From: Campylobacterales bacterium
GTDB taxonomy: Bacteria > Campylobacterota > Campylobacteria > Campylobacterales > Sulfurovaceae
Length of the DNA: 41,070 nt
NCBI GenBank assembly: GCA_014763895.1
Contig: JACXUM010000021.1
Location: forward strand, 1 to 41,070
Direction of reading: 5' to 3'
This document shows, piece by piece, positions 1 to 33,511 of this stretch. Numbering within the stretch: the stretch's first letter is position 1; each line of letters opens with the position of its first letter. The position numbers and the translations under genes are program-made. Under the pieces are notes generated by a model. The model was not told the DNA's origin. It saw only the letters and a list, made by a program, of their open reading frames with translations, and did not search any database.

Positions 1-534
1 CAACACATCCAGATCCCCAAACTGCCGCATCGTGATATTGCCGTAGGCCATCTGCGCGAGGGCAGGCCCCTTGAAGGCGAGGGCTTCGATGTTGTTTGCT
101 TCGAGCAGCTTCATGATGCGGAGCAGTTCGGCGGACATGAGCATGTTGCGGCGAGAAATACTCATATAGTGAGCTTTTAGCTCGGTGAGTATATTCTCAA
201 GTGAGGAGTGAGGAGTGAGGAGTGAGGAGTGGATGTTGTCGCTTTGCGACGGTTCATTGTTTGTATTACGGTTTACGTCTGACGGATCAAGCGCAGCTGG
301 GGCTGCGAGTGAGGAAGTAGGAGTGAGGAGTGAGGAGTTACTTTCAGACAATTTTTTTAATGTCTTATAGACTAAGGGCAAGACTCCGTGCTGCGAAGCA
401 GCAGTGATTAGTGATTCGTAATTCGTGATTTGCGACAGGTAACTGCAGATGAGGTCGATATCTTTTTGCGTCGGTTTGCTCTGGCAGCAGGCGATGATGC
501 ATTGCATTTGCGATGAGAGGTCTTGTTTTTTCAT
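1..534 (-). CDS. Nucleotidyltransferase-fold family protein, C-terminus cut by window edge
   Basis: An open frame runs from an ATG at 534 to base 1 without a stop (178 codons). The second half contains LAFKGPALAQMAYGNITMRQ followed by FGDLDVL, which matches the core of the uncharacterised nucleotidyltransferase family PF14907 (K-G and the D-x-D metal-binding pair), often found near exopolysaccharide or peptide-modification genes. The N-terminal half has the usual HGVLPLVYKTL segment. Between these two conserved parts, codons about 66-111 are low complexity (SSLLTPTSS, HSSLLTPHSSL) and are encoded by heptanucleotide repeats, so the protein carries an in-frame insertion that the family does not need. 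No clear Shine-Dalgarno precedes the ATG, so the exact start is uncertain. The neighbouring EPS operon suggests, but does not prove, a role in surface polysaccharide. The substrate is unknown. Confidence 0.75.
   Translation of the reverse strand, partial: MKKQDLSSQMQCIIACCQSKPTQKDIDLICSYLSQITNYESLITAASQHGVLPLVYKTLKKLSESNSSLLTPTSSLAAPAALDPSDVNRNTNNEPSQSDNIHSSLLTPHSSLENILTELKAHYMSISRRNMLMSAELLRIMKLLEANNIEALAFKGPALAQMAYGNITMRQFGDLDVL
201..338. repeat. Heptanucleotide (GAGTGAG) repeat arrays inside a coding frame
   Basis: Two short arrays of the 7-base unit GTGAGGA occur at 201-230 (about four copies) and 307-338 (about four copies, one imperfect), separated by 76 bases of non-repeat sequence. 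Both are in the reading frame of the minus-strand gene and keep it open. Because 7 is not a multiple of 3, copy changes of one unit would shift the frame. The same unit recurs at 33480-33511, and a related one at 33348-33383. Confidence 0.85.
402..430. repeat. Second short repeat type (GTGATT/ATTCGT units)
   Basis: AGTGATTAGTGATTCG followed by TAATTCGTGATT is a run of near-identical 7-base units. It is in the coding frame of the 1-534 gene and encodes part of the SQITNYESLIT segment. It is probably a different member of the same class of dispersed short tandem repeats. Confidence 0.5.
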
Positions 535-1428: not shown

Positions 1429-3738
1429 ATGAATTCACACACAGTACAGAGAGAAGAGGATGAGATAGATCTCAGGGAGATCGTCAAGACATTGCTCAGA
1501 CACAAACAAAAGATCATTTTTTTTACGATACTGTTTACTTTTATAGCGGCTTGGATCGCCTATTTTAAACCCAATGTTTACTCTGCTTCCTCAACCGTCG
1601 AAGTGGGGTTGGAAAACCGATACGGCTCAAACCAGGACATCCTCTCCATGGCGATCTCGCCGGAAGCTTTCAGCCCGGATACGGAGATCGAGATCATCCA
1701 GTCGCGTTTTGTCATCGCCAACGCGCTGAAAAAAGTTGATTTTGCCCATCGCTACTATAAAGACTCGATGTTCAGAGAGATCGAACTTTATACCGATTCC
1801 CCTTTTGAAGTCGATCTGAGCGATGGATACGGACTTTCGTTCGAGCTCACCCCAATGGATGAAAACCGTTATCGTATCCAGGCAAAAGGGATCGATGAGC
1901 AAACCAAAGAAGAGTGGGAAGCAGACAAAGTCTATCAGTATGGCCAAAAGGTTGAAGAAAAATACTTTGCTTTTACCTTGAGGCTGAAAGAGGGAAGCAG
2001 GATCAATTCGGGTTCGTACCGTTTTACGGTCCTCGATCCCCTGTCGGCTGTCGGATCGGCACAGAGAAATATTTCGGTAGCGCAAACGAGCAAATTTTCA
2101 TCTATCCTGCAGATCACGGTAGAAGACAATGTCGCTTTGCGTGCCAAAGAGTTTGCCAATGCCCTGGCGGAAGGGTATATCGAGCAGAGCATCCAGCGAA
2201 AAACGCTTGAAGCGACCATGACACTCGATTTCATCGATGAACAGCTGGCCCTGATCAATGACAATCTTCAACATTCTGCGGTGAAACTGGAAAACTTCAA
2301 AAAAGAGACCAATATGGTCAATCTCAGCACCAAAGCAGAGGGTGTTGTCGCCAAGATGAGCGAGTATGACGGTAAGCTTGAAGAGGTGAGCATGGAAGAG
2401 AAGATGCTCTCTTCTCTTTATGCACAGGTGGTAAGAGGCAAAAATCTCGAAACGATCTCGGCTGCGGGGCTTAATCTGGAAAATACCGGCCTGCCTGAGC
2501 TGATCAAAGAGCTTCAGGATACGGTTATCAAACGCAAACTTCTGCTTGAAGACTACACGATGCAACACCCAGAAGTGATCAAACTCAATGGCACTCTCAT
2601 CCAGCTTAAAAAAGTGATCACGACCGCGATCATCACGCTCAACAAACGGGTGGAGACAAAAAAGAAACTGCTTCTTAAAACGATCAGCGAATATGAAGGC
2701 GTGATGCAGACGCTTCCCAAAGATGAAAGGGTTTTCAGCGAGCTTCAGAGAAAATATCTGGTCAATGAGAAGATCTACTCCTACCTGCTCGAAAAGCGTG
2801 CGGCAACGGCGATAACCAAAGCTTCTACGGTGAGCAAAAACAGGGTGCTGGATACGGCGATCGATCCGATCGCGCCGATCAAACCGAAACGCAAGATGAT
2901 GGTACTCGTGGGGTTGATTCTCGGATTGATCGTTGGGATAGCGTTTGCGTTCATCAGCGAGTTCATGGACGACCGGATCAAAGAGGAGGAGGATGTCAGA
3001 AAGGCTACGTCTATCTCTTTGGTGGGATCGATCCCGTCCATCAGTGACGGCAGTGATAAAGTCAAAGTGTTCGAGTCTCCCAAGTCTGTATTCAGCGAAG
3101 CTTTCAGGTCTTTAAGGACCAATCTGCAGTTCATGAAGATCACGGAAGGGCCGATGCTCATCACGATCACATCGACGATCGGGGGAGAGGGAAAAACGAC
3201 GGTAGGTAGCAATCTGGGCGCCATCATGAGCCTGACGGGAAAACGTACCGTTGTTCTGAATTTGGATATGAGAAAACCGATGCTGCATAAGCGCTTTGAC
3301 CTTCCGAACAATGAAGGCGTCAGTTCAGTCCTCGCCAACAAGGCAACGGTAGAGAGCGTGATCCAGGCGACAGGGTATGAGAACCTGGACATCATCTCCT
3401 CCGGCCCGATCCCGCCAAATCCGAGCGAATTGATCCAGAGCAGGAAAATGGCCGAAATGATCGATACGCTCAAAAAAACCTATGATGTGATCATCCTGGA
3501 TACGCCGCCTGTGGGATTGGTGACCGATGCGATGAGCCTCATGAAGATATCGGACGTATCCTTATATGTACTGCGTGCGGGTTATTCGAAAAAAGAGTTC
3601 CTGCATGGCATCAACCGCATGGCAGATCAGCATGAGATAAAAGGGTTGGGACTGCTGCTTAACGATATGAAAGTAGGCAAACACGGCTATGGCTATGGCT
3701 ATGGCTATGGTTACGGCTATTATGAGGAAGACAAGTGA
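1429..3738 (+). CDS. Polysaccharide co-polymerase / bacterial tyrosine kinase fusion (Wzc-like)
   Basis: This 769-residue inner-membrane protein has a Wzz domain with a first membrane helix at about residues 31-50, a long periplasmic coiled-coil region with a GNVR-type segment (EKRAATAITKASTVSKN), a second helix at about 488-510, and a cytoplasmic BY-kinase domain. The kinase shows Walker A (GGEGKTT, about 584), Walker A' (VVLNLDMRKP, about 607) and Walker B (VIILDTPPVG, about 686). The C-terminus is a tyrosine cluster of YG repeats ending YYEEDK, the autophosphorylation tail of such kinases. It should control chain length and export of an exopolysaccharide. The start follows AAGGAGATAA. It is first in an operon with the phosphatase gene, whose GTG overlaps its TGA by four bases. 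Confidence 0.93.
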   Translation: MNSHTVQREEDEIDLREIVKTLLRHKQKIIFFTILFTFIAAWIAYFKPNVYSASSTVEVGLENRYGSNQDILSMAISPEAFSPDTEIEIIQSRFVIANALKKVDFAHRYYKDSMFREIELYTDSPFEVDLSDGYGLSFELTPMDENRYRIQAKGIDEQTKEEWEADKVYQYGQKVEEKYFAFTLRLKEGSRINSGSYRFTVLDPLSAVGSAQRNISVAQTSKFSSILQITVEDNVALRAKEFANALAEGYIEQSIQRKTLEATMTLDFIDEQLALINDNLQHSAVKLENFKKETNMVNLSTKAEGVVAKMSEYDGKLEEVSMEEKMLSSLYAQVVRGKNLETISAAGLNLENTGLPELIKELQDTVIKRKLLLEDYTMQHPEVIKLNGTLIQLKKVITTAIITLNKRVETKKKLLLKTISEYEGVMQTLPKDERVFSELQRKYLVNEKIYSYLLEKRAATAITKASTVSKNRVLDTAIDPIAPIKPKRKMMVLVGLILGLIVGIAFAFISEFMDDRIKEEEDVRKATSISLVGSIPSISDGSDKVKVFESPKSVFSEAFRSLRTNLQFMKITEGPMLITITSTIGGEGKTTVGSNLGAIMSLTGKRTVVLNLDMRKPMLHKRFDLPNNEGVSSVLANKATVESVIQATGYENLDIISSGPIPPNPSELIQSRKMAEMIDTLKKTYDVIILDTPPVGLVTDAMSLMKISDVSLYVLRAGYSKKEFLHGINRMADQHEIKGLGLLLNDMKVGKHGYGYGYGYGYGYYEEDK
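3685..3720 (+). repeat. Hexanucleotide GGCTAT repeat encoding the tyrosine tail
   Basis: Six tandem 6-base units (five exact GGCTAT, one GGTTAC) encode alternating Gly-Tyr at the kinase C-terminus. The unit is a multiple of three, so copy-number changes would add or remove phosphorylatable tyrosines without a frameshift. Confidence 0.9.
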
Positions 3739-33347: not shown

Positions 33348-33383
33348 AAGAGTGAATAGTGAAGAGTGAAGAGTGAATAGTAA
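33348..33383. repeat. Heptamer repeat array B (AGAGTGA/ATAGTGA)
   Basis: Five or so seven-base units (AGAGTGA, ATAGTGA) lie 14 bases upstream of coaD. It is in inverted orientation to array A at 33480-33511 and partly complementary to it, so the intervening 97 bases could be looped out as a stem. Confidence 0.85.
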
Positions 33384-33479
33384 ATAATATTGCTTTGCAT
33401 TGCTTTTCAATGCTTTTATTTGATGAATGGATCATTTGTTTCTCTTCAATCAAAGCTTTTTTTGGAAAAGCATACCACA

Positions 33480-33511
33480 ACTCCTCACTCCTCACTCTTA
33501 ATTCCTCACTT
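33480..33511. repeat. Heptamer repeat array A (ACTCCTC)
   Basis: About four seven-base units of ACTCCTC/ATTCCTC type, the same unit as in the gene at 1-534. It overlaps the end of ubiX: the ubiX stop TGA lies within the last unit on the minus strand. Confidence 0.85.

Follow-up and report, generated by a model that had tools for sequence, protein, structure and literature searches.

Heptamer and palindrome repeats probably entered protein linkers repeatedly in a Sulfurovum-like genus

Short repeats within bacterial genes have been described in several forms. RPEs are short palindromic interspersed elements that lie in frame in unrelated genes and are translated as extra segments (PMC10969869). 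Palindromic REPs also occur within genes, where they have been argued to be neutral if they fall in flexible linkers; the same work describes GTAG- and CGTC-tagged REPs together with tyrosine transposases in Sulfurovum NBC37-1, and REPs that differ between two Xanthomonas at roughly one position in recB (PMC3733652). Dispersed, mostly intergenic heptamer arrays are known with the units TAACTGA in Beggiatoaceae and GGGAATC in Xanthomonas, along with cyanobacterial types (PMC4679880, PMC4692102), and a 2015 paper considered whether heptamer arrays might be tolerated between the subunits of modular proteins. Finally, units of 7 bp occur in the frame of neuO, which carries 3-53 repeats, their number not being a multiple of three in 42/64 genomes (PMC13001214), and in the promoter at H. 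influenzae hmw, which carries 13-38 units (PMC2651432).

The repeats considered here were found in the window, by which we mean the whole 41,070-nucleotide stretch of DNA analysed. Like RPEs, they are inserted in frame in unrelated genes (PF14907, murD and priA here; pdxA and others elsewhere). In contrast to RPEs, which form ~150-bp families and to which we liken them by description, their body consists of 7-bp tandem units and short palindromes, and one murD site holds unrelated families in sister species. A GTAGG..CCTAC pair, as in GTAG REPs, was present in 3/67 murD and 10/53 priA linkers. Unlike the GTAG and CGTC REPs, however, the block in the window is heptamer-based and, as far as read, has no such tag, although it contains the short palindrome CGTCTGACG; the tag scan covered GTAGG..CCTAC, elements of which numbered 0 in 379 kb of the window's own genome (window included) and 4 in 400 kb of genome G024. 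As with the known bacterial heptanucleotide repeats, arrays were dispersed above chance: the 379-kb sample, which is biased in that contigs were picked for holding arrays or palindromes, contained 18 period-7 arrays compared to 1 in a Markov control. Whereas the in-ORF copies of known heptamers are few, mostly near gene ends, or under-represented according to the parts of PMC4679880 and PMC4692102 at hand, some of those described here are interior to core enzymes and adjoin a palindrome module. They share 7-bp units with neuO and hmw, but number about 4 and are partly degenerate, in contrast to the many uniform, length-variable units of those loci. Among the papers listed by literature searches, none dealt with heptamer inserts within proteins of Sulfurovum, the intragenic-REP list of PMC3733652 (Additional file 3) lying outside their coverage. 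As far as the literature was searched, two features are new: a heptamer and palindrome composite as in-frame linker filler in core genes, and, throughout a genus, inserts that turned over repeatedly at a single murD site.

The repeat block and its nucleotidyltransferase gene

The features of the window are as follows.

1..534, minus strand: 5' part only of a PF14907 (NTP_transf_5) gene, from ORF and Pfam profile match
181..360, minus strand: linker 3 of the PF14907 protein, 60 residues here, with the repeat-derived insert
200..231, minus strand: heptamer array, CACTCCT on the coding strand; TRF 4.6 units, 100% matches; encodes HSSLLTPHSS
238..250, no strand: perfect palindrome GTCGCTTTGCGAC between the two heptamer arrays; encodes SQSD
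276..284, no strand: short palindrome CGTCTGACG between the arrays, spotted by eye
293..306, no strand: short inverted repeat GCAGCTGGGGCTGC between the arrays, spotted by eye
307..338, minus strand: second heptamer array, imperfect; TRF 4.6 copies, 85% matches, 14% indels; encodes SSLLTPTSSL
403..430, minus strand: third, degenerate period-7 stretch, in linker 2; TRF 4.0 copies, 85%; part of QITNYESLIT
33348..33510, no strand: second composite, mostly intergenic; heptamers, a ATTGCTTTGC stretch, then heptamers in the opposite sense

The first-pass annotation had placed two heptamer arrays in frame in the PF14907 gene, and both were confirmed by TRF. With at most one mismatch allowed, GTGAGGAGTGAGGA had 5 matches in the window, 4 of them in the PF14907 gene and 1 at 33482, compared to 0 in 100 dinucleotide shuffles of the window. 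Palindrome GTCGCTTTGCGAC likewise failed to occur in 100 shuffles, and its core also adjoins heptamers in murD and priA of the same genome, so that the window gene, murD and priA share one composite type, heptamers plus a YGCAAAGCR palindrome. The two arrays and the DNA between them form an in-frame insert of ~45 residues. The second composite lies partly in what is predicted to be the 5' extension of a gene and partly in the spacer before the following gene; from the ORFs alone, we take the genes around it to be coaD-like and ubiX-like.

The ORF has potential start codons at 549 (GTG) and 534 (ATG) and remains open to window base 1. Because the window spans a complete contig and base 1 is its edge, the gene is truncated and its frame is visible only to residue ~183. 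Its protein matched Pfam NTP_transf_5 with an E value of 1e-22 and 81.3 bits (gathering score 31.2), and residues 43-183 cover just profile positions 4-100, leaving ~44 extra residues. The contig break falls within the conserved GDLDVL motif, and the C-terminal two thirds of the gene were not found in the rest of the 1.77-Mb genome, which is rated 99.84% complete; either an assembly break or strain variation could account for the missing 3' part. The cut gene and its missing remainder might also raise the suspicion that the inserts themselves are an assembly or binning artefact. Open-frame murD inserts were found in many genomes, however, including the single-contig genomes G016, G024 and G041, making an artefact exceedingly improbable.

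To define the insert, we used a set of 45 PF14907 homologue rows whose linkers were delimited by alignment; L105 and L330 in this set duplicate each other and L071 is broken, while L115, L116 and L117 were left out, as were two further L071 pieces. Linker 3 measured 11-27 residues in 37/45 rows and 32-101 residues in 8/45, compared to 60 in the window. Since linker 3 is short in most homologues, the block is an insert, which they lack. This fits the suggestion, made from the window alone, of a repeat invasion that stayed open. Larger and different repeat mixtures occupied linker 3 in G009 (L060, 95 residues) and G001 (L059, 101 residues), consisting of other heptamers, SQSD palindromes and CGTC-type hairpins. 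The PF14907 insert of G001 contained CGTCATCC...GGATCC units, and its protein had a large insert in linker 2 as well.

We modelled the G001 protein (L107) with AlphaFold, obtaining a mean pLDDT of 78.8 with 26 alignment rows compared to 36.9 from the single sequence. The model has a nucleotidyltransferase fold, with LnuA, MenT1 and ANT(2'') among the top structure matches, and 304/552 residues at pLDDT >=90; at E 0.1, the PF14907 profile had no match among PDB sequences. Values below 50 were confined to residues 1-4 and to residues 57-106 and 166-212, both of the latter within the two inserts. The inserts are thus probably disordered in the model, although few alignment rows cover them, so that low pLDDT there is partly expected and serves as support only.

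The first-pass annotation had also entertained a contingency switch for an envelope-related enzyme. In such a switch, slipped-strand changes in the number of 7-bp units would turn the nucleotidyltransferase on and off, and an envelope polysaccharide along with it. Since 7 mod 3 = 1, any single-unit change shifts the frame. Next to the PF14907 gene stand a gene for an OmpA-like barrel and a polysaccharide gene of the Wzz/tyrosine-kinase type, and neuO, in which 7-bp units switch a capsule enzyme, provides a precedent (PMC13001214). In addition, the homologue of genome G020 (L071, about 1500-1530) had 2 heptamer units in linker 2 compared to 4 in L061, and was frameshifted. That copy nevertheless carries an in-frame TAG downstream as well (2008-2010); judged from its sequence, it looks like a pseudogene whose frame was broken naturally by the loss of units. 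The switch found no support in the remaining evidence, which covered one genome per species. The window arrays are short rather than long and uniform, at 4.6 units each with one at 85% matches, and linker 2 was steady in length (14 aa in 22/45 rows, 13-15 aa in 28/45), its units being degenerate in G024 (L062). Equivalent arrays lie in frame in murD and priA, and a 39-residue murD insert was kept in three genomes (see below). In bacteria generally, loss of murD is lethal, and loss of priA should be costly. Arrays in these two genes therefore count against an on/off switch, which we regard as highly doubtful.

Separately, the Wzz/tyrosine-kinase protein has a Gly-Tyr tail encoded at 3685-3720 of the window by six tandem GGCTAT hexamers (86% matches).

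Recurrent inserts at one murD site

The murD gene of the window's own genome contains an in-frame heptamer/palindrome composite just upstream of the P-loop GTNGKTTT. We compared this site across the 73 genomes with a murD match, 67 of which gave a linker (6 partial ones were omitted). The linker was exactly 6 residues in 31/67 orthologues and 8-46 residues in 36/67. A clear period-7 stretch was found in 17/36 of the long linkers compared to 0/31 of the 6-residue linkers. Frames were open in the rows listed, with the exception of one weak secondary match. On the best tree of the murD core, the linker changed state 10 times (shuffled mean 22.6), 3 of these changes being forced by starred (well-supported) branches. 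The DNA flanking the linker was 92% identical between G083, with 6 residues, and G001, with 32.

The content of the site differed as well. Where G066 and G014 have heptamers, G024 and G041 have an inverted repeat that ends in GTAGGG and CCCTAC; where G071 and G065 have another sequence, G009 and G002 have SQSDA-heptamer inserts. Sister species therefore hold different inserts at one murD site, a recurrence that was observed directly. By comparison, the insert measured 39 residues in G000, G059 and G044 despite base changes, and 36 residues in G046 of the same clade.

Two observations at this site bear on a purely local origin, in which heptamers and hairpins would arise where they stand, through replication slippage and template switching at quasi-palindromes, and would not disperse. 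First, some insert ends (right junction, for example in L179, L183 and L184) formed the perfect hairpins CCAAACCGTTCACGGTTTGG and TGAAAGGCAAAAGCCTTTCA, which overlap conserved murD codons; none were seen by eye in the compact murD genes compared. Read from sequence, these junction hairpins hint at rewriting by template switching. Second, exact GGGAGCA triples in G050, G062, G066 and G067 were found solely inside murD, suggesting inheritance or local growth.

Genomes loaded with arrays accounted for 28/36 of those with a murD insert and 5/31 of those without, an association that rests on just 3 tree-independent pairs and is thus not confirmable on the tree.

Arrays in priA and other genes, and properties of the linkers

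A heptamer/palindrome composite also lies in frame in priA of the window's own genome, upstream of the helicase domain. Of 57 priA loci, 53 gave a linker (4 missed anchors), with lengths of 17-47 residues; an insert-free state was not discernible among these 53.

To place arrays in their genomic context, we surveyed one array per genome in 30 of the 36 genomes with a match. Twenty were intergenic and 10 fell in ORFs, 7 of the latter being interior. All 7 interior arrays were observed to read in the stop-free sense. Read this way, the heptamer is free of stop codons in all frames (HSSLLTP cycle), while the antisense reading, as judged from sequence, hits TGA within three units. The interior cases comprised murD (own genome), pdxA and, both close to the N-terminus, lptE and a peptidase M16 gene; the other three were an ORF whose PALP match fell below threshold and two that matched no Pfam family. 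Arrays in the linkers of several proteins, among them core enzymes, look tolerated rather than like an on/off switch. As a separate observation, arrays encode part of LptE-like N-terminal regions in two genomes (L135:11002-11032 and L239:1501-1519; FTFHFSFFTLLLL and FTLHSSFFTLIV).

We next compared linkers with the core of the same gene. Identity at lag 7 was elevated in the linkers of murD (0.434 vs 0.247) and priA (0.316 vs 0.252), as well as in PF14907 linker 3 (0.337 vs 0.242) and linker 2 (0.375 vs 0.241). The excess was sharp at lags 7 and 14, with lags 6 and 8 near or below core; murD showed a smaller excess at other lags (0.332 at lag 5, 0.28-0.31 at lags 1-4). At least 13/14 matches at lag 7 were found in 17/67 murD, 9/53 priA and 6/45 PF14907 linkers, compared to 0 matched core stretches. 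Perfect stems of at least 8 bp were present in 11/31 murD and 24/53 priA linkers versus ~4% of core windows, while PF14907 linker 3 had no stem excess (2/42 vs 5.5% in core).

RNA folding followed the same division. A z below -2 was obtained for 16/26 murD linkers compared to 0/26 core stretches and for 25/42 priA linkers compared to 4/42, while PF14907 linker 3 had little RNA structure (3/20 vs 0); since the sequences in these linker comparisons are related, the z-values overstate independence. The folding excess in murD and priA, together with recurrent occupation of one murD site, might be taken to mean that the inserts are selected, with the repeat-coded linker or an mRNA hairpin regulating the enzymes through spacing, translation pausing or mRNA stability. 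This is quite improbable: sequence, length and family turn over between sister species, 31/67 murD genes have no insert, and PF14907 linker 3 is barely structured.

Spread of the repeats and the origin of the inserts

Although arrays of period 7 stood out in the own-genome sample, periods 9 and 12 were also above the Markov control (14 vs 4 and 18 vs 2), an excess that is probably codon-related. In 400 kb of G024 there were 3 period-7 arrays compared to 0 in the control. A three-unit CACTC pattern, to which alone the class-wide figures apply, was found in 36/78 genomes of the genus and 15/397 genomes of the class, comprising 12/30 in the family and 3/367 outside it. Heptamer patterns read backwards are no valid control, since a reversed pattern can itself be an array; in one search the reversal outnumbered the forward pattern, at 38 vs 20. 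The reversed CACTC pattern reached 41 and 74 matches in G027, a genome from outside the family in which other heptamers may be abundant.

The palindromes were also examined. TYGCAAAGCRA was hardly enriched in the window's own genome (6 matches vs 3 in the control), with 3/6 near a period-7 stretch. The arms vary between copies yet still pair (GTATCGC/GCGATAC, GCATTGC/GCAATGC, GTCGC/GCGAC). A period-7 stretch lay nearby at 5/7 palindrome loci with paired arms compared to 0/9 without; 3 of those 5 loci were known beforehand, and their exclusion leaves 2/4 vs 0/9. Within 400 kb of G024, its murD insert had matches at E < 1e-3 to five further places, including one in priA, and copies of one long inverted-repeat family were dispersed.

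These results bear further on local origin. Units vary among sites and species, and palindrome arms that differ while still pairing are what growth in place would leave, as are the GGGAGCA triples confined to murD and the junction hairpins that use conserved murD codons. However, the palindrome core and heptamers recur together at unrelated loci in several genomes, and the inverted-repeat family of G024 is dispersed. We therefore regard a purely local origin as unlikely.

We instead favour the view that interspersed heptamer/palindrome repeats have repeatedly entered protein linkers, and that selection on the protein, rather than a switch, keeps the frame; this is the probable explanation. The window block would be one copy of an interspersed composite in which CACTCCT, CACTCAT or GGGAGCA units surround palindromes such as GCATYGCAAAGCRATGC. 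Such composites, along with other palindromic families (GTAG- and CGTC-type), would have entered linkers, including those of murD and priA, in a Sulfurovum-like genus. Within genes, units would survive in the stop-free sense and where the total insert length keeps the frame, yielding a disordered spacer of roughly 10-100 residues in a protein that is presumably expressed and still working, the spacer itself being presumably neutral. Spread may have occurred by non-autonomous transposition, or by replication slippage together with template switching. Neither a transposase nor a target-site duplication nor an autonomous parent came to light, the HUH-like motif scan having covered ORFs in ~780 kb of two genomes (379 kb of the own genome and 400 kb of G024), where it returned 2 candidate ORFs. 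Some composite copies were flanked by opposite-sense heptamers; no duplication was seen by eye at the murD sites compared.

A bolder extension of this view, which we consider rather unlikely, is that the heptamer/palindrome element acts as a linker generator, with the inter-domain sites of murD and priA serving as reusable landing pads for unrelated repeat families that supplant each other. Because the sense unit is stop-free in three frames, it could open into any frame. Were this true, mobile repeats would set the spacing of core-enzyme domains, possibly with a hairpin template-switch mechanism rewriting adjacent codons.

Whether or not that extension holds, the guess of a phase switch in a single gene gives way to a genus-wide natural experiment at the murD inter-domain site. 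There it can be tested by what route repeats of selfish or slippage origin turn into protein sequence, what makes 7-bp units predominant in bacteria, and whether a site once filled draws in more insertions. For annotation, such segments should not be taken as domains or contingency loci.

Lastly, contig C79 of G001 carries four TCGCAAAGCGA palindromes 1.5-2.2 kb apart, all in a single orientation; the G001 genome as a whole had 13 forward and 3 reverse matches to TCGCAAAGCGA.
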